From positions 1 through 49,424 of IMG/VR virus record IMGVR_UViG_3300031787_000189: a stretch of 49,424 bases of DNA. One strand, 5' to 3'. Positions within the stretch are counted from its first letter, which is position 1; every line of letters begins with the position of its first letter. Made by a program: the position numbers and the translations under genes. Source of the DNA: a virus. This document shows positions 1 through 49,424 of this stretch, piece by piece. The notes beneath the pieces are model-generated. The model saw nothing but the letters and a program-made list of their open reading frames with translations. It was not told the origin of the DNA and did not search any database.

Positions 1-1055
1 TTTTTTATATTAATGTGGGTTCTATTCCACCAAATGAGGTAGAAAACTTCATGCAGAAGACTATTACTCAAATGAAGAGAACTCCATTTATGGATCCAAA
101 TACTGGTGAATATAATTTAAAATATAATCTACAAAACTCATTAGAAGATTTCTTTATTCCTGTTAGAGGAAATGATCAAACAACTCGAATTGAACCAACT
201 AAAGGTTTAGATTATACAGCGATTGAAGATGTAGTTTACTTAAGAGATAAGCTATTTGCTGCTTTAAAGGTACCTAAAGCATTTATGGGTTATGAAAAAG
301 ACTTAACTGGTAAAGCAACATTAGCAGCTGAAGATATTCGTTTTGCTCGCACAATTGATCGCATTCAAAGAATTATACTCTCAGAACTAAATAAAATTGC
401 CTTAGTTCACTTATATACTCAAGGCTACAGAAATGAATCATTAACTAATTTTGAATTATCATTAACTACTCCTTCTATCATCTATGATCAAGAAAGAATA
501 GCATTAATGAAGGAAAAAGTTGATTTAGCTAAAAATATTATTGACGGTAAATTATTACCTACAGATTGGATCTATGACAATGTATTCCACTTAAGTCAAG
601 ATCAGTTTGATGAATATAGAGATTTAATTGCTGAAGACCAAAAACGTACTTTCAGATTCAAACAAATAGAAAATGAAGGTAATGACCCACTTGAGTCAGG
701 TAAGTCATATGGTACACCTCATGATTTAGCTGCTTTATATGGTTCTGGAAGGAATGGTATTGGTGTTCCTGATGGTTATGATAAAGATGAAACTTTAGGT
801 AGACCAAAAGAAAAAGCATCTATTGCTGGTACACAACAAAGTACTTTAGGTAAAGATAGATTAGGTAATATTGGCATGAAAAAAGGAGATGCAACAGGTG
901 AAGATGGATCTTTAAAGAATAATTTTAAAGGTGGATCACCTTTAGCTTTAGAGACTAAAGATAAAAATAAAACTTTATTAGAATCTTTAGATAAAAAATT
1001 ATCACTTAAAAAAGAAGAATCTTCATTATTAGATGAATCTCAAATACGAGAGTAA
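1..1055 (+). CDS. 20: Portal vertex protein, gp20-like (5' end outside window)
   Basis: The portal is the dodecameric ring at the unique capsid vertex through which DNA is packaged and ejected; in T4 it also nucleates the prohead. The frame is open to the window edge: codons from base 3 read FYINVGSIPP, which corresponds to the FYIDVGNLP segment of T4 gp20, so the GTG at 15 is internal and only the C-terminal part is present. Family features visible are the LEDFFIPVR stretch, the 'IEDVVYLRDKLFAALKVP' region and a low-complexity Gly/Lys-rich tail after about residue 220 of the visible part. The protease gp21 and capsid gp23 follow, as in T4. Family assignment is confident; the true start cannot be seen. 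Confidence 0.93.
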   Translation, partial: FYINVGSIPPNEVENFMQKTITQMKRTPFMDPNTGEYNLKYNLQNSLEDFFIPVRGNDQTTRIEPTKGLDYTAIEDVVYLRDKLFAALKVPKAFMGYEKDLTGKATLAAEDIRFARTIDRIQRIILSELNKIALVHLYTQGYRNESLTNFELSLTTPSIIYDQERIALMKEKVDLAKNIIDGKLLPTDWIYDNVFHLSQDQFDEYRDLIAEDQKRTFRFKQIENEGNDPLESGKSYGTPHDLAALYGSGRNGIGVPDGYDKDETLGRPKEKASIAGTQQSTLGKDRLGNIGMKKGDATGEDGSLKNNFKGGSPLALETKDKNKTLLESLDKKLSLKKEESSLLDESQIRE

Positions 1056-40802: not shown

Positions 40803-43800
40803 ATGGCCATTATAGGTGAAAGTTTTAAACCGTATGTTAGAACACAAATTAATATACGTCAAAATAAATTAGCTTTAGGAGTTAAAGATAATGATACCTT
40901 AAAATATATAACATCCAAAACATCATTTTTAAGATTAACATCTGGAGTAAATGTTAATAAAGAAGTAGCTAAAAATTTAGATGTTCCTAATCTTGAAGGA
41001 AATGGTTTAGCTAAACAATATGTTTTAGAAGCTGCTCGCTTTAAATCTGACCCCAACAATGCAGACTCAGATTTTACTTCAGGTGTAGGTTACACCTCAG
41101 GAGAATTTAGAAATAATTTTGCTGCCTCTTATGGATTTAACTCAGATCCTAGCTTTGGTTTAGTACCCCCTCCAGGTTTAACATCAGCTACTATTAATAC
41201 TTTAAACAGAGGTACTATACGAGAAGCTACTATAAATTTAGTATGCCATAATCTTTATCAATTTAAAATAATAAATGCTTTATTTTTAAAATTAAAATAT
41301 TCATTGTTATTAGAATGGGGTCATACTTTATATTTTGATAATGGTACTAAAGATAATCCAACTCCTTCATTTGTAAGACCAATATCTATACCGAATTTAT
41401 CTAATGATTTTTTAAATCGTAAAGGTATGTCTTCTGATAGTATATTAAAAGAAATAGAAAATAAAAGAGAAGAATCATGTGGTAATTATGATGCTTTTTT
41501 TGGTGTGATTAAAAATTTTAATTGGGAATTATCAGAAAATGGTTCTTACAATATTACAATTATTGCTATATCTCAAGGTAGTGTTATTGAATCATTAAAA
41601 ATAAATTCTAATCTTACTCCAAATGAAAACATTAGTGGTGAAAATCCTTTATACCAAAAATCTACTTTTCATTATATTTTAGGTAAAATTAGAGAAAAAA
41701 TACTTAATGGAACTGGAGGAGCAGGTGGTGACAATTACCTTCATGGATATATAACAGCAGCCGGAGAAGTAGGTTTAAACTCAGTCAATGTATCTAATTT
41801 TACAAATGTAAAAATTAATAACAAAAATCCATTAGATACAAATTCAACCTCAGCAAAAGCTAATAATATTTTAACTAATCAGGAAGGATTAAAAATAACA
41901 TTCCCTAATTTACAAACATATATAGAATCTAATACTGGTCAAAATCAGTTTTATATAAAATTAGGAACATTACTTCGCTTAATGGAATCATTTTTATTAT
42001 ATTATGATACTACTAAAGATTCAAATCCTTCAATATTTCATTTTAATTATAATTTTATAACTGGAAATGACTGTGTAACAATTCCTCATCATATTTCAAC
42101 TGACCCTCTTACATGTCTTATACCTCTTGATTATGAAAATAACACTGATCCCCCTACTTCTGTTGTATACAATATAAATACTACTACTCATACTATAACC
42201 CTTGATAAAGATTTTAAAATTGTCTCTAGTACTTTTACAACTGCAGCTAGTGCTGATAGTACTGGATGGCCTGATCCTTCTGTAGATGAATCATTAGAAA
42301 ATCAAGAAGTGGTACTTAGCACAGCAGATAGTCTTGGTAATTCTTTATCCAGCGCTGCTTTTAGAATAATCCCTAATAAAACTCTTTACAGTGATGTTTA
42401 TTCTAGATTAAGTTCTACCCCAGATATTTTTTCTCTTCCTTCAAATCCTAATGGTCAAAATATAACAATTATAACTAAAACTATTAGTCCTGTTACAAAA
42501 TATAATATTAATACTCAAGACCAAGCTGAGAATTTAAAATATATGAATAGTGAGTTTAGATCTAAAAGTCCATATATTGGTAAAACCATGCATATATATG
42601 TTAATATAGGCAAAATTATTGACATTTTAGATAAAAATGTAGATGATGAAGGTAATATATCTGTTCATAGTTTTTTAACTCAATTACTAAGTGATGTAAA
42701 ATATGCTTTAGGTGGTATAAACAAATTTGATTTAAACTATGACTCTGTAACTAACACTTTTTCTATTATAGACACAGCTGTTATTCCTTACAAATATCAA
42801 AATCTAAACAAAAAAGATATAGCTAAATTTAATATTAATTTATTAAAAGAATCAAATAATGGTGGTGGTAGTTTTGTAACTAATTTTAGTTTAAAAAGTG
42901 AAGTATTTTCTAAAGTAGCAAACGCTATAGCTATAGGAGCTCAAGATAATGGAAACAGAATGTTAGCTAATTCAACTCCTCTTAGTAATTTTAACAAAGG
43001 ACTAACAGATAGAATAATAACTAATAAAGAAAACATTAACACTAAAGATTTTAAATCAGATCAAGGATTTGACCAATTCAGTGAAGCTTTTGCTAAATAT
43101 AACCAATATAAAAGAAAATTTGTTAGTACTTCTGGTGAAGGTATAAATGAAAATGATATAAACTTATATAGAAATTATCTAGTTGATTTATTTAATTATG
43201 ATTTAGGAACATATACTAGTAATGGAATTACTCCAGGTACTGGTTTTATACCATTAAATCTTCAATTAACAATGGATGGTTTAAGTGGTTTAACTCAATA
43301 TCAAACTTTTGAAATAGATGAAACTTTATTACCTGATGAATATAAAAACAGATTAGGGTTTATAACAACAACTATTTCTCATAAAATTGACAGTAAAGGA
43401 TGGGAAACTACAATTAATTCTTTAGGTGTGCCTAAGAAATTTGGAAAAGAAACAAAAGTAGTATCATCTCCACCTCCTAAGGTGACTGAACCTTCAAAAT
43501 CCCAAACAAAAACAACAACCGCTTCTGTAAAAACCTCAGGTAATCAAGCTAATGTTAGAGCTAAATATGGTGAACCAGGAGATGAGAGTAATTTAGTAAT
43601 GTGGACTTTACCATATACACTTTATTATACTGCTGAAAAAGGTGGGGCTGCTAAAGGTAAAACTAAATTCACTAAACTTAAAGTACATAAAGATGCTTTA
43701 TCTAACTTTGATAATGCTTTTAAAGAAATACTAAGAGAATTTGGTATTGAAAGAATTAAAGAATTAGGATTAGACTCTACATCTGGATTACATAATGTTA

Positions 43801-44072
43801 GAGCAAATAGAAATAATCCAAATAAATATAGTTTGCATTCATGGGGGATAGCTATTGATTTACTTGTAGCTGAAAACCCAAATGTGCCTAAAAGTAGAAG
43901 AAGTTCTACACCTTACGGAAATTCAAAATCTTCACCTCCTTCTACATTTTCAACCCCTGAATATGCTAAGTTTATAACAATAATGGAAAAGAATGGGCTT
44001 TATTCTTTAGGGAAATGGGGTGATTATGATTGGCAGCATTTCCAAACATGGCCACTAAACCAAAAAGAATAA
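40803..44072 (+). CDS. Baseplate hub protein with C-terminal M15-type peptidase
   Basis: A 1089-residue protein. The N-terminal ~900 residues are a hub-type structure (for example 'LLLEWGHTLYFDNGTKDN', 'FFGVIKNFNWELSENGSYNI' and LLPDEYKNRLGFITTTISHK-IDSKGWETTINSLG). After a Thr/Lys/Ser linker (about 900-925) comes a zinc peptidase of the M15 (VanY/L-alanyl-D-glutamate peptidase) type: SLHSWGIAIDL gives the S-x-H-x6-D signature (His1012, Asp1019), and DYDWQHF supplies the third ligand His1079. The conserved W-x-H is intact, so an active enzyme is expected. Such a domain would cut the peptide stem of peptidoglycan during entry, taking the role of T4 gp5 lysozyme. Confidence 0.82.
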   Translation: MAIIGESFKPYVRTQINIRQNKLALGVKDNDTLKYITSKTSFLRLTSGVNVNKEVAKNLDVPNLEGNGLAKQYVLEAARFKSDPNNADSDFTSGVGYTSGEFRNNFAASYGFNSDPSFGLVPPPGLTSATINTLNRGTIREATINLVCHNLYQFKIINALFLKLKYSLLLEWGHTLYFDNGTKDNPTPSFVRPISIPNLSNDFLNRKGMSSDSILKEIENKREESCGNYDAFFGVIKNFNWELSENGSYNITIIAISQGSVIESLKINSNLTPNENISGENPLYQKSTFHYILGKIREKILNGTGGAGGDNYLHGYITAAGEVGLNSVNVSNFTNVKINNKNPLDTNSTSAKANNILTNQEGLKITFPNLQTYIESNTGQNQFYIKLGTLLRLMESFLLYYDTTKDSNPSIFHFNYNFITGNDCVTIPHHISTDPLTCLIPLDYENNTDPPTSVVYNINTTTHTITLDKDFKIVSSTFTTAASADSTGWPDPSVDESLENQEVVLSTADSLGNSLSSAAFRIIPNKTLYSDVYSRLSSTPDIFSLPSNPNGQNITIITKTISPVTKYNINTQDQAENLKYMNSEFRSKSPYIGKTMHIYVNIGKIIDILDKNVDDEGNISVHSFLTQLLSDVKYALGGINKFDLNYDSVTNTFSIIDTAVIPYKYQNLNKKDIAKFNINLLKESNNGGGSFVTNFSLKSEVFSKVANAIAIGAQDNGNRMLANSTPLSNFNKGLTDRIITNKENINTKDFKSDQGFDQFSEAFAKYNQYKRKFVSTSGEGINENDINLYRNYLVDLFNYDLGTYTSNGITPGTGFIPLNLQLTMDGLSGLTQYQTFEIDETLLPDEYKNRLGFITTTISHKIDSKGWETTINSLGVPKKFGKETKVVSSPPPKVTEPSKSQTKTTTASVKTSGNQANVRAKYGEPGDESNLVMWTLPYTLYYTAEKGGAAKGKTKFTKLKVHKDALSNFDNAFKEILREFGIERIKELGLDSTSGLHNVRANRNNPNKYSLHSWGIAIDLLVAENPNVPKSRRSSTPYGNSKSSPPSTFSTPEYAKFITIMEKNGLYSLGKWGDYDWQHFQTWPLNQKE

Positions 44073-45027: not shown

Positions 45028-45038
45028 AAATAAAGGTT

Positions 45039-46313
45039 ATGTATTATCTAATAGAAAGTCAACATCAATTTAAGGAGTTTGCTCAACAGCAAACTAACAG
45101 ATGTTTTGTTGAACTGATTCTAAATCATAACTTAATACATCCTGCTTTAAATGATGTTTCATTAGTCTATATTAGACCTGAAGGTGAGAAAAAAGGATAC
45201 ATTATTCCTATCTCACATAATGAATCATTCTCTATCCCATTCCAGCAAGTTAAAAAATTTATATCAAGTTATAAAGAAGTATTTGTTAGGGATAAGAAAA
45301 CAAGTATGTATTTTCTAAATAAAAAGAATTTAATACATTTCCCTATCAATATAGAGAATTTATCATTTCCAATCTATGATTATTATCATAGACTATACCC
45401 AAATAGAAATGATATAAATAAATTTATCCCTATAGCTAAACACTATGAACGTTGTGAAGAGTATTTTGCTCAAATAAACTTTACCCACTACTCAGAATTT
45501 TATAATAAAGCAATAGAGTGTTTCTACACTATAGAATCAGGTGGTATTAGTGTAAATACAACGCTTATAGACGATTATTTTACACCTAACAATACCCTCC
45601 ATTCAATAAAAGGCAATGTAATATACTCACAGTACAATGTAGATACTACAACTAAAAGACCATCAAATAGTTTTAATGGTATTAATTTTGCTGCTTTACC
45701 TAAAGATGGTTCTAGAAAAGCATTTGTATCTACAAATGGAAAACTTATTGATATTGATATTGATTCTTACCATCCAACTCTAATTGCTAAACAAATTGGT
45801 TATAGTTTTGGAGAAGAGTCAATACATGAACACATGGCTCAACTTTATGGAGTAGATTATAAAGTGAGTAAAGAACTTACTTTTAAACAACTGTATGGAG
45901 GTATTTTTGATGATTATAAACATTTAGAATTTTTCTCTAAGACTCAAACGTTAATAGATAATTTATGGGAACAGTTTAATACTAAGGGTTATATTGAATG
46001 TCCTGTATCTAATCATAGATTCTATAAAGAATATTTACCTAATATGGGTCCTCAAAAGTTATTTAACTATTGGGTCCAAAATTTAGAGACATCACAAAAC
46101 ATTTTAATATTACAAGATATATTACCAATAATAAAAGGTCATAAAACTAAATTAGTATTGTATACTTACGATGCTTTCCTATTCGACATTAGCAAAGACG
46201 AATTAGAATTGTTAGAAGATATATGTTCTGTTTTTGCTAGTTATGGCTTAAAATACAAAATGAAATATGGATACAACTACTATGACCTTAGTTCACTCTC
46301 AACATATGTATAA
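45039..46313 (+). CDS. Short DNA polymerase I-like (family A) protein
   Basis: A 424-residue protein with the family A polymerase motifs in order. Thumb/palm entry: YTIESGGISVNTTLIDDYF (about 163-181). The TKRPSNS segment (205-211) and NGINFAALPKDGSRKAFVS parallel the TGRLSS and NIPIRT...IRxAFVAP segments. Motif A is LIDIDIDSYHPTLIA (236-250), with Asp240 at the Pol I Asp705 place. The O-helix K278-E-L-T-F282-K-Q-L-Y286-G keeps Lys758, Phe762 and Tyr766. Motif C is YTYDAF (Asp378 for Asp882; HDE becomes YDA). The N-terminal ~110 residues look like a degraded 3'-5' exonuclease fold (YIIPISH) lacking its acidic ligands. His245 replaces the Glu710 position. An active but unusual polymerase is plausible; the substrate is unknown. 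Confidence 0.72.
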   Translation: MYYLIESQHQFKEFAQQQTNRCFVELILNHNLIHPALNDVSLVYIRPEGEKKGYIIPISHNESFSIPFQQVKKFISSYKEVFVRDKKTSMYFLNKKNLIHFPINIENLSFPIYDYYHRLYPNRNDINKFIPIAKHYERCEEYFAQINFTHYSEFYNKAIECFYTIESGGISVNTTLIDDYFTPNNTLHSIKGNVIYSQYNVDTTTKRPSNSFNGINFAALPKDGSRKAFVSTNGKLIDIDIDSYHPTLIAKQIGYSFGEESIHEHMAQLYGVDYKVSKELTFKQLYGGIFDDYKHLEFFSKTQTLIDNLWEQFNTKGYIECPVSNHRFYKEYLPNMGPQKLFNYWVQNLETSQNILILQDILPIIKGHKTKLVLYTYDAFLFDISKDELELLEDICSVFASYGLKYKMKYGYNYYDLSSLSTYV

Positions 46314-46743
46314 TAAACCTTATGGGTTTGATATTACAGACTTAAACTTTGATGATGTGAGTAACAAATTATTCTGCACATTTTCAGAATTAGATGAGAT
46401 TGACAGTCTTATAGACAATATAAGAAGCCAGTACGATGTACTGTACAATAAAATATTTGTCTTACAGATCAAGAATAGCGATGAATATGTTTGCACATAC
46501 AACATAGATTATTCCAATTTAAACGAAATTCCTGAAAACACTATATTGGTTCACCGTAAAAAGGAAACCAACACGCTATACACTATTAACGCACTTAATG
46601 AACTTATTAAGAAGCTAAATGGTGGTGTAGTGGATGTGTCTTTTAGAATTAATTGGATGCACTATCGCAACTGTATCTTATTGACCCAACATAATGAATT
46701 AAAACAATTGAATACAAGAGTGTATAAGATTGTTGAGTTGTAA
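46306..46743 (+). CDS. Hypothetical protein downstream of the polymerase-like gene
   Basis: ATG 46306 is preferred to 46267 since it overlaps the previous stop by only 8 bases (ATGTATAA), while the longer frame would overlap by 47. The 145-residue product is predicted alpha/beta: an acidic N-terminus MYNKPYGFDITDLNFDDVSN, a strand IFVLQIKNSDEYVCTYNI, and a C-terminal region INALNELIKKLNGG, FRINWMHYRNCILLT and TRVYKIVEL. Proteins with a comparable 'INWxxYRNxLLLT' end are found in marine T4-likes, as I recall, without function. Coupled translation with the polymerase-like gene suggests a shared role, but this is unproven. Confidence 0.65.
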   Translation: MYNKPYGFDITDLNFDDVSNKLFCTFSELDEIDSLIDNIRSQYDVLYNKIFVLQIKNSDEYVCTYNIDYSNLNEIPENTILVHRKKETNTLYTINALNELIKKLNGGVVDVSFRINWMHYRNCILLTQHNELKQLNTRVYKIVEL

Positions 46744-46868
46744 TTTATTGGTAACTAACGTTAACGCTACGTACTTAAAACATGGCCGTTTATAAGCTCT
46801 TTGAAGCAAGTTTGGCCTTATTAAAAACAAGTATTATATTATATTAACAATTTAAAAACCAAATTTTT
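46744..46868 (+). other. Leader region upstream of the gp32-like gene
   Basis: 125 bases without a supported gene. It has an 8-bp palindrome TAACGTTA (46756-46763), a GGCC...GGCC pair (about 46783-46816) enclosing a small GCT/AGC hairpin, and an AT-rich TATTATATTATATTAAC stretch that could hold a promoter. In T4, gp32 represses its own translation through a leader pseudoknot; a similar operator could lie here, but I cannot show one. No TATTTATAA motif, consistent with a class of expression different from the structural genes. Confidence 0.3.
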
Positions 46869-47750
46869 ATGGACATTAATGCTATTAAACAGAGATTGAA
46901 TTCTCTACAGTCGTCCGGACAGAAAAAAGAAAAGGTCGATTATTCCAAGTACTATTGGAAACCAAAACAAGAAGGTAAGTATCAAATCCGTTTTGTACCT
47001 TCTGCACATGCTTCTATTTTTAAAGAACATGAAGTACAACCATTCAAAGAAGTGTTTGTACACTACGGATTCTCTAAATTCCCTATTTATGCTTTAACCA
47101 ACTGGAGTGAAAAAGATCCTATTGTTGAATTCGCAAAACAGCTTCGTGGCACAAGTGAGAAAGAAAATTGGCAATTAGCTAAGAAATTAGATCCTAAAAT
47201 GCGAGTTTTTGCTCCTGTAGTTGTACGTGGTGAAGAAGAAAAAGGTGTTCGTCTTTGGGAATTTGGTAAGGAAATCTATATGCAATTGCTCGGCATCGCT
47301 GAGGATGAGGATTATGGAGATTTTACAGACATTAATGACGGTCGTGACTTTACAGTTGAAGCTGTAATGGGTGATATTGGTGGTCGTCAAGGTATCAAGT
47401 GTTCAATTCGTGTTAAACCAAAAACATCACCACTTGGTACAGATAAAACTCAAATTAAATCTTGGTTATCTGAGCAACCTAATGTTTTAGAACTTCAAAA
47501 GAAAAATACATTTGAAGATCTTAAGAGTGTATTAGAGAAGTTTTTGAATCCTGAAGCTGAAAGCGATGAAGAAGAAGAAGTAGTAGTACCTGCTAAAGCT
47601 ACTAATGCTGCTCCTAAAGATTTGCCTTGGGAAGATGATGAAGCAGAAGATGAAACACCTGCTCCTAAAGCTAACTACGCTCTAAAAACTGCTCCTACAA
47701 AAACATCCAAAGCAGCTAAGTTTGATGCTTTGTTTGAAGACGAGGAATAA
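46869..47750 (+). CDS. 32: Single-stranded DNA-binding protein, gp32-like
   Basis: Coats ssDNA at replication and recombination forks and recruits partners such as UvsX through its acidic tail. The 293-residue length matches T4 gp32 (301). The core segments 'YYWKPKQEGKYQIRFVPSAH' (about 28-47), 'FVHYGFSKFPIYALTNW' and MGDIGGRQGIKCSIRV are present. The T4 zinc ligands (His-Cys-Cys-Cys) are missing: the equivalent region has no cysteine, and the only Cys is in GIKCSIRV. The C-terminus is long and acidic (SDEEEEVVVP, EDDEAEDE) and ends KFDALFEDEE, the usual SSB-tail character. uvsX follows 19 bases on. Confidence 0.9.
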   Translation: MDINAIKQRLNSLQSSGQKKEKVDYSKYYWKPKQEGKYQIRFVPSAHASIFKEHEVQPFKEVFVHYGFSKFPIYALTNWSEKDPIVEFAKQLRGTSEKENWQLAKKLDPKMRVFAPVVVRGEEEKGVRLWEFGKEIYMQLLGIAEDEDYGDFTDINDGRDFTVEAVMGDIGGRQGIKCSIRVKPKTSPLGTDKTQIKSWLSEQPNVLELQKKNTFEDLKSVLEKFLNPEAESDEEEEVVVPAKATNAAPKDLPWEDDEAEDETPAPKANYALKTAPTKTSKAAKFDALFEDEE

Positions 47751-47769
47751 AAATTAATTAATACAGATT

Positions 47770-48855
47770 ATGGCTAAAAAGAAAGAATCTTTAATGACAG
47801 CGGTCTCTGAAGAAATTAAATCAAGTTTTAATCTTGATAAATTTAAAGAGAAAAAATTACTTAACAGTACAGTTAAGTTTAAAGAACAGAGATGGATCCC
47901 ATTCTCAGAAGCATTACAAGATTCAACTTCACTTCCAGGCGCAGCCATAGGTCATACTAATCTTTTAAGAGGACACAGTAATACAGGTAAAACAACAGCT
48001 TTACTTGAATTAGCAATTAATGCCCAGAAAATGGGCATTTTGCCTGTGTTCATTATTACAGAGATGAAATGGTCTTGGGAACACGCTAAACAAATGGGTT
48101 TTCAAGTTGAAGATGTTGTTGATGAGACAACAGGTGAAATTGTAGATTATAAAGGTTTCTTCATATACAATGATAGAAGTGCGTTAGGCACTATTGAAGA
48201 TGTAGCAGAATTTATAGCTGACTTGTTAGATGAACAGAAAAAAGGTAATTTACCTTATGATCTATGTTTCTTTTGGGATTCAATAGGTTCTATACCTTGT
48301 AAAATGAGTGTTGAAGCAAATAAAAATAATCCAATGTGGAACGCAGGTGCAATGTCACAACAATTTGGAAATTTTATTAATCAACGTTTTCCATTATCAC
48401 GCAAAGAAAATTCACCATATACAAATTCAATGGTAGCAATCAATAAAATTTGGATTGCACCAGCTGAGAATATATTTTCTCAACCTAAAATGAAAATGAA
48501 AAATGGTGAAACAATGTTTTTAGATAGTTCTATTGTAATCACATTTGGTAATATTACCAATAGTGGAACAAGTAAATTAAAAGCAACTAAAGATGGAAAA
48601 GAAGTAGAATTTGCGGTTCGTACTAAAGTATCAGTAGATAAAAACCACGTTACAGGTCTACAAACTAAAAATACAGTTGTAGCTACAGTTCATGGTTTTA
48701 TTAAAGACGACAACAAAGATATTAATGATTATAAAAAACAACATGCCCATGAATGGGTACATATCTTAGGAAGTCTTGATGGTATTGGTCTTACTGAAGA
48801 CAAATCAGAATGGGAAGAAAGTAAAGAAAACATAACATTGATTGACGAAGAATAA
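47770..48855 (+). CDS. uvsX: RecA-like recombinase UvsX
   Basis: Strand-exchange ATPase for recombination-dependent replication in T4-like phages. The 361-residue length is near T4 UvsX (391). Walker A is GHSNTGKT (68-75), followed by 'LLELAINAQKMGILPVFIIT' and EMKWSWEHAKQMGF. The Walker B strand is CFFWDSIGSIP (Asp170). The MSQQFGNFINQRFP and NSMVAINKIWIAP segments continue the RecA-type core. The start at 47770 lies 19 bases after the gp32 stop, and the stop is one base before the following RNase H start, so gp32, UvsX and RNase H appear to be one replication/recombination unit. Confidence 0.92.
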   Translation: MAKKKESLMTAVSEEIKSSFNLDKFKEKKLLNSTVKFKEQRWIPFSEALQDSTSLPGAAIGHTNLLRGHSNTGKTTALLELAINAQKMGILPVFIITEMKWSWEHAKQMGFQVEDVVDETTGEIVDYKGFFIYNDRSALGTIEDVAEFIADLLDEQKKGNLPYDLCFFWDSIGSIPCKMSVEANKNNPMWNAGAMSQQFGNFINQRFPLSRKENSPYTNSMVAINKIWIAPAENIFSQPKMKMKNGETMFLDSSIVITFGNITNSGTSKLKATKDGKEVEFAVRTKVSVDKNHVTGLQTKNTVVATVHGFIKDDNKDINDYKKQHAHEWVHILGSLDGIGLTEDKSEWEESKENITLIDEE

Positions 48856-48856
48856 T

Positions 48857-49424
48857 ATGGACAAAAAAGATCTGTTTAAGTTACTAGATAACATCCAGCC
48901 AGGTAATGAACCTGGAAAAGCAACGTTTAACAAGCATGATAGAGTTCTTATCATTGATGGTTTGAATTTATTCTTACGTAACTTTGCAGTCATCAATTAT
49001 GTCAATCAAGATGGTGTCCATATTGGAGGCCTAGGAGGATTTTTACGTTCATTGAGTTTTCTTATCAACCAAAATACCCCCACATCAGTTTACATTATAT
49101 TTGACGGAGTTGGTTCAACCATTAACAGGAAGAACCTTCTCCCCGAATATAAATCAGGTAGGAACTTAACCCGAGTTAATAGGAGTTCTACATTTGAAGA
49201 CATGGATGAGGAAAATGAATCTAAAATAAATCAGATATCTAGACTCATTCACTATTTAAAGTGTTTACCCGTCAAACTTATCTCACTCGACAAAGTCGAG
49301 GCAGATGATATTATAGCTTATTTATCCCGTTATTTAGCCACTAAACACAACTCTAAATGTACTATAGTATCAGCAGATAAAGATTTTTTACAATTAGTAG
49401 ATAAAAACATTACAGTCTACAGTC
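48857..49424 (+). CDS. rnh: Phage RNase H (FEN-type 5'-3' exonuclease), 3' end outside window
   Basis: An ATG one base after the uvsX stop opens a frame that runs to the window edge (189 codons, no stop). It is the N-terminal part of a T4 RNase H/FEN nuclease, which removes RNA primers and flap DNA during lagging-strand synthesis. Metal-binding acidic residues of the family are visible: Asp34 in LIIDGLNLFLRN, Asp83 in YIIFDGVGS, Glu148/Asp150/Asp151 in KVEADDIIAYL, and Asp174/Asp176 in SADKDFLQLV. The gene is complete at its 5' end. Its codons are richer in C/G endings (ACC, GTC, CTC, AGG) than the fibre genes. Confidence 0.88.
   Translation, partial: MDKKDLFKLLDNIQPGNEPGKATFNKHDRVLIIDGLNLFLRNFAVINYVNQDGVHIGGLGGFLRSLSFLINQNTPTSVYIIFDGVGSTINRKNLLPEYKSGRNLTRVNRSSTFEDMDEENESKINQISRLIHYLKCLPVKLISLDKVEADDIIAYLSRYLATKHNSKCTIVSADKDFLQLVDKNITVYS

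Follow-up and report, generated by a model that had tools for sequence, protein, structure and literature searches.

What does a compact protein of the family A DNA polymerase type do in a T4-like phage? To our knowledge, T4 has no family A polymerase, and a preliminary description had placed a compact family A polymerase-like protein at 45039-46313 of the virus record IMGVR_UViG_3300031787_000189 (positions 1 to 49,424; this 49.4-kb fragment, analysed as a whole, is hereafter called the window). Because the frame is intact from ATG to stop (424 codons) and its relatives are present in at least 576 IMG/VR stretches (profile scan), the ORF represents a real gene; a first IMG/VR scan had found 26 close relatives of its product. 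The T4-like context was borne out by the identification of the gp23 capsid, tail sheath, gp19-like tube, gp32, and UvsX, and motifs together with AlphaFold2/Foldseek analysis confirmed that the product is a divergent family A polymerase. More precisely, it is a new member of the divPolA1 family, which Yutin et al. 2024 (Virol J, PMC11348598; preprint PMC11188092) named for phage immuto and related phages, described there as 14 genomes of 155–190 kb. Since this family was published in 2024, our result extends a known family and is not in itself a discovery. The features of the locus are listed in Table 1.

Table 1. Features of the polymerase locus, given as nucleotide positions in the window or as residues of the 424-aa protein
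Feature	Position	Strand	Basis or remark
divPolA1-type compact family A DNA polymerase, 424 aa	45039..46313	+	ORF, alignment, model
Degenerate 3'-5' exonuclease-like region of divPolA1	residues about 1-150	+	alignment, model
Minimal linker replacing thumb in divPolA1	residues about 170-204	+	alignment, model
Palm/fingers of divPolA1	residues about 205-424	+	alignment, model
Motif 1 TKRPS, residues 205-209	45651..45665	+	R207 = Pol I R668; T/R/P invariant
Motif A DIDSYH, residues 240-245	45756..45773	+	D240 = Pol I D705, H245 = Glu710 position; D, H invariant
O-helix K-x3-F-x3-Y-G, residues 278-287	45870..45899	+	= Pol I K758, F762, Y766; invariant
Motif C YTYDA, residues 375-379	46161..46175	+	D378 = Pol I D882, invariant
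Partner gene, 145 aa, mixed alpha/beta fold	46306..46743 (longest frame from 46267)	+	linked to divPolA1
gp32-like single-strand DNA binding protein (SSB)	46869..47750	+	
UvsX/RecA-like recombinase	47770..48855	+	
FEN-type 5'-3' exonuclease (rnh-like), 5' part, gene cut by contig end	48850..49424, start approximate	+	translation; immuto homologues annotated 5'-3' exonuclease; order in relatives

Searches of Pfam and of PDB sequences with the single window protein yielded no usable match. PHROG 17 ('DNA polymerase') matched it weakly, and the protein fell below the cut-off of Pfam DNA_pol_A, with gp001 of immuto lying above it (43.9 bits). Among 65 diverse members of the family, 21 matched Pfam DNA_pol_A (best, 2e-12) and 18 matched PHROG 17 (best, 3e-11), and the fold and motifs A, B, and C are present. 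An hhalign comparison of the divPolA1 family with the full-size PolA of immuto (single sequence) gave no significant match; therefore, the link to family A rests on the Klenow and Pfam profiles and on structure. Only the alignments, immuto, and the model made this link firm. No match was found when homologues were sought with the LR756508 protein.

The AlphaFold2 model of the 424-aa protein, built with 65 homologues, had a pLDDT of 94.3 and a pTM of 0.91. The match to the palm and fingers of Pol I anticipated in the preliminary description was found in this model: in a Foldseek comparison with the PDB, the top 50 matches are family A polymerases without exception, led by Mycobacterium Pol1 (E 8.6e-16) and including Klenow (query TM 0.70), Taq, Pol nu, Pol theta, and apicoplast Pol. 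Asp240 ends the predicted strand 234–241 and Asp378 lies in the turn of the hairpin 371–376/379–385, as in motifs A and C. An intact palm is consistent both with this placement and with the way Foldseek superposes the model on Klenow-type enzymes. In divPolA1, 37 residues separate motif 1 from the helix that opens the polymerase domain, versus 212 in the full-size PolA of immuto, and the profile alignment of the family with Klenow skips about 90 thumb residues; therefore, the thumb is essentially missing. The degraded exonuclease-like fold that had been noted ahead of the polymerase motifs was recovered as well. Across 187 sequences, the N-terminal 150 residues contain no conserved Asp, and the exo I region (F-V-E-L) is variable, in line with a dead 3'-5' exonuclease in which the catalytic Asp has been replaced. 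The conservation of His34, His60, and Lys87 in this region (see below) suggests that it kept or gained a function, in DNA or partner binding, after the loss of the nuclease.

Residue conservation was assessed in 187 distinct full-length homologues (67 clusters at 80% identity). The residues initially assigned to motif A (Asp240), the O-helix (K278-F282-Y286-G287), and motif C (Asp378, in YTYDAF) all proved to be correctly placed, and R207, P208, N210, D240, H245, K278, F282, Y286, G287, Y344, Q347, Y377, and D378 are invariant in all of the 187 sequences. The two proposed substitutions also held: H245 aligns at the Glu710 position, and HDE of motif C is replaced by YDA in the window protein and by YD[A/S] across the family. 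divPolA1 shares with bacterial Pol I/Klenow the fold, motif 1, the aspartates of motifs A and C, the K/F/Y/G of the O-helix, and the equivalents of N845 and Q849 (the latter being Q347), but differs from it in the reduced thumb, the loss of the exonuclease motifs, the changes at Glu710 and HDE, and the usual presence of Tyr at the R754 position. The full-size PolA of immuto retains Glu and Arg at the Glu710 and R754 positions. These three substitutions could have altered the substrate or slowed catalysis. The conservation observed in the 187 sequences is far beyond chance and points to a polymerase site that is probably active; the invariant catalytic residues make it unlikely that the gene is a pseudogene or its product a dead enzyme. 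An MAFFT alignment combining compact and full-size PolA sequences misaligned the O helix, and no residue claim was drawn from that alignment. Three residues of the exonuclease-like region, His34, His60, and Lys87, are also absolutely conserved in the 187 sequences.

In its passages on divPolA1, PMC11348598 describes a conserved palm, a truncated thumb, and an inactivated exonuclease on the basis of structural superposition, with a regular DNA polymerase of family A, B, or C encoded elsewhere in the genomes and replication genes conserved downstream. Our structural conclusions, reached independently, are the same. The window protein is homologous to the divPolA1 of Flavobacterium phage vB_FspM_immuto (gp001; 38% identity over 96% of the length, E 3e-83) and has the catalytic palm, the 37-residue thumb region, the degenerate exonuclease, and the downstream replication genes; a regular DNA polymerase is also encoded in the relatives, the window being a 49-kb fragment. 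It was assigned to divPolA1 because every defining feature that we tested was found in it or in its close relatives. It belongs to a different subclade from other divPolA1 proteins, showing 26–49% identity to most of them and 77–94% identity within its own close group. The divPolA2 proteins of barbaviruses and others, as described in the same paper, are alike in being additional family A proteins without exonuclease and thumb that occur beside a regular PolB, but their N-terminal globular domain is unrelated and their gene neighbourhood varies; we set them apart by this published description. Relative to the passages on divPolA1 in PMC11348598, what appears to be new here is the size of the family, its presence in Mel-JY01 and LR756508, a steric-gate position that is always occupied by His, the linked partner gene, and the fixed gene order described below.

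The polymerase gene had been described as adjoining a gp32-uvsX-rnh group, and this reading was sustained, the open frame at the end of the window being a FEN-type 5'-3' exonuclease gene. Where 8 kb or more of downstream sequence was available (65 distinct loci), SSB and RecA/UvsX genes follow divPolA1 on the same strand in every locus, and FEN and DnaB genes in 64. The order is fixed as divPolA1 – small gene – SSB – UvsX/RecA – FEN – DnaB, which the window matches as far as the FEN start. Functional counterparts of T4 gp32, uvsX, rnh, and gp41 thus follow the compact polymerase. Just upstream, a 1089-aa protein (window 40803-44072) has a D-Ala-D-Ala carboxypeptidase (Peptidase_M15) domain at its C-terminus, the rest being unrecognized, and a homologue of it precedes divPolA1 in many relatives.

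The small gene, hereafter the partner, belongs to one gene family that lies between the polymerase and SSB genes in 168 distinct loci. Since its ATG at 46306 overlaps the stop codon of the polymerase gene (ATGTATAA), the sequence suggests translational coupling of the two. Among the matches listed, the polymerase gene lies upstream in all 116 loci with enough upstream sequence when the partner is used as the query, and both genes are present in 36 of 36 loci when UvsX is used; these scans cover the closest loci, and the linkage result applies to this phage group. Across 50,697 phage records, the partner was found in six only, all of which also have the compact polymerase. The invariant residues of the partner (alignment A4, numbered as in the window protein) include F26, F51, Y65-N66, V82-H83, N89, N95, N98, N105, G107, and W117. 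Its model has a pLDDT of 88 with 17 disordered residues at the N-terminus, and comparison with the PDB gave no sequence match and no fold match at E≤0.001; no functional PHROG matched it. It is conceivable, albeit rather unlikely, that divPolA1 and the partner are the two obligate parts of one polymerase, with the partner replacing the thumb or serving as a dedicated processivity or recruitment factor. Such an architecture, if true, would be new among family A enzymes. In any case, the strictly linked partner gene offers a direct experimental handle.

The 49.4-kb window, which is a fragment, contains no second recognizable DNA polymerase gene. The long relative closest to it (G001, 163 kb) shares 91% DNA identity with the window over 45028-49424 and carries the compact gene at about 69–70 kb and a full family B polymerase gene at 89–90 kb, i.e. 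19 kb downstream and past the point where the window ends. Among 39 long contigs of IMG/VR that carry the compact gene, 17 encode PolB, 11 encode a full-size PolA (about 780 aa), none encodes both, and the 11 with neither are fragments of 50–114 kb; all 10 contigs of at least 115 kb encode a full-size PolA or PolB, never both. A search of the 39 contigs for Pol III alpha found none. The full-size enzyme is a PolA in immuto and a PolB in Microcystis phage Mel-JY01; LR756508 (484 kb) apparently has both a PolB and a DnaE-like protein. Every relative of at least 150 kb has a separate gene for a DnaG-type primase. The compact polymerase is retained whichever family the full-size polymerase belongs to. 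Because just two switches between genomes of the PolA and PolB types suffice to explain the tree of 44 divPolA1 sequences, we do not claim frequent swapping of the two.

On the whole, we consider it rather probable that divPolA1 is an accessory, non-proofreading DNA polymerase for short synthesis in a recombination/repair/Okazaki module. With palm and fingers and both metal-binding aspartates, it would most likely add dNTPs to a primer end; with no working proofreading and almost no thumb, it would hold DNA weakly on its own and make short products. It would act within the SSB-UvsX-FEN-DnaB module, in cooperation with FEN and UvsX and perhaps with the small protein encoded downstream, filling gaps where FEN removes RNA primers and/or extending 3' ends at recombination intermediates, and the genome would meanwhile be copied by the separate full-size PolB (or PolA). 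Bacterial Pol I fills Okazaki gaps using its own FEN domain. Okazaki gap filling after FEN fits the neighbours best, with extension of UvsX D-loops and bypass of lesions close behind, the choice among the three being made from the neighbouring genes only. The literature that we found reports no enzymatic activity for the divPolA1 family. A widespread group of aquatic T4-like phages (with isolates on Flavobacterium and Microcystis) keeps a stripped-down family A polymerase beside its recombination genes, and the role of this polymerase would reveal which job in phage DNA metabolism requires a second, thumb-less, and non-proofreading polymerase.

The preliminary description had offered a replicative role, repair or translesion synthesis, and a different template or product. 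Of these, repair in the accessory sense given above emerged as the most likely. The idea that divPolA1 is the replicative polymerase, with the partner perhaps as thumb or clamp and the full-size PolA or PolB doing something else, draws on the constancy of divPolA1 while the other polymerase is of family A or B, on its position at the head of the replication cluster, and on the remark in PMC11348598 that the role of the regular polymerases is less obvious given their context. However, proofreading and nearly all of the thumb are missing, and near-complete relatives always keep a separate full-size polymerase of the kind that replicates phage genomes, as in the 10 contigs mentioned above; a replicative role is thus unsupported and was rejected as very unlikely. 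Less remote, but still unlikely, is a translesion or mutagenic polymerase acting at damaged templates or recombination forks. The lack of proofreading, the open thumb-less active site, and the adjoining UvsX and SSB genes would suit such an enzyme, but the K, F, and Y of the O-helix and Q347 (Q849 in Pol I) are invariant, and these are fidelity residues of family A enzymes. The presence of the gene in every locus further suggests that it is needed all the time and not just in emergencies.

Synthesis of RNA or mixed primers, with the His at the Glu710 steric gate admitting ribonucleotides, has a still lower probability than the replicative role. His245 is present in all 187 homologues while the full-size PolA of immuto has Glu there, and family A is the origin of the T7-type RNA polymerases; a link to RNA polymerases was raised for divPolA2 in PMC11348598. 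Nevertheless, a His side chain is still large enough to act as a gate, the F762 and Q849 equivalents are retained as in DNA polymerases, and the best structural matches are DNA and not RNA polymerases. All near-complete relatives encode a separate DnaG-type primase, making a primase role unlikely, and a different product (RNA or primers) is not favoured. Least probable of all is a non-enzymatic structural or DNA-binding subunit of the replisome: it would accommodate the lost thumb, the dead exonuclease region, and the altered surroundings of motif C, but neither D240 and D378 nor the dNTP-binding K and R vary at all, even among sequences with as little as about 26–30% identity. The accessory polymerase remains our preferred reading.

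In several relatives, the PolB gene itself is split into two frames 0.8–4 kb apart or contains in-frame stops (IMG/VR contigs of L261 (G015), L203 (G035), L078 (G003), and L103 (G005), as well as 260–267 kb of LR756508), as if inserted elements were carried or the gene were split. LR756508 apparently combines divPolA1 (47.4–48.1 kb), this (split) PolB, and the DnaE-like protein in one 484-kb genome.
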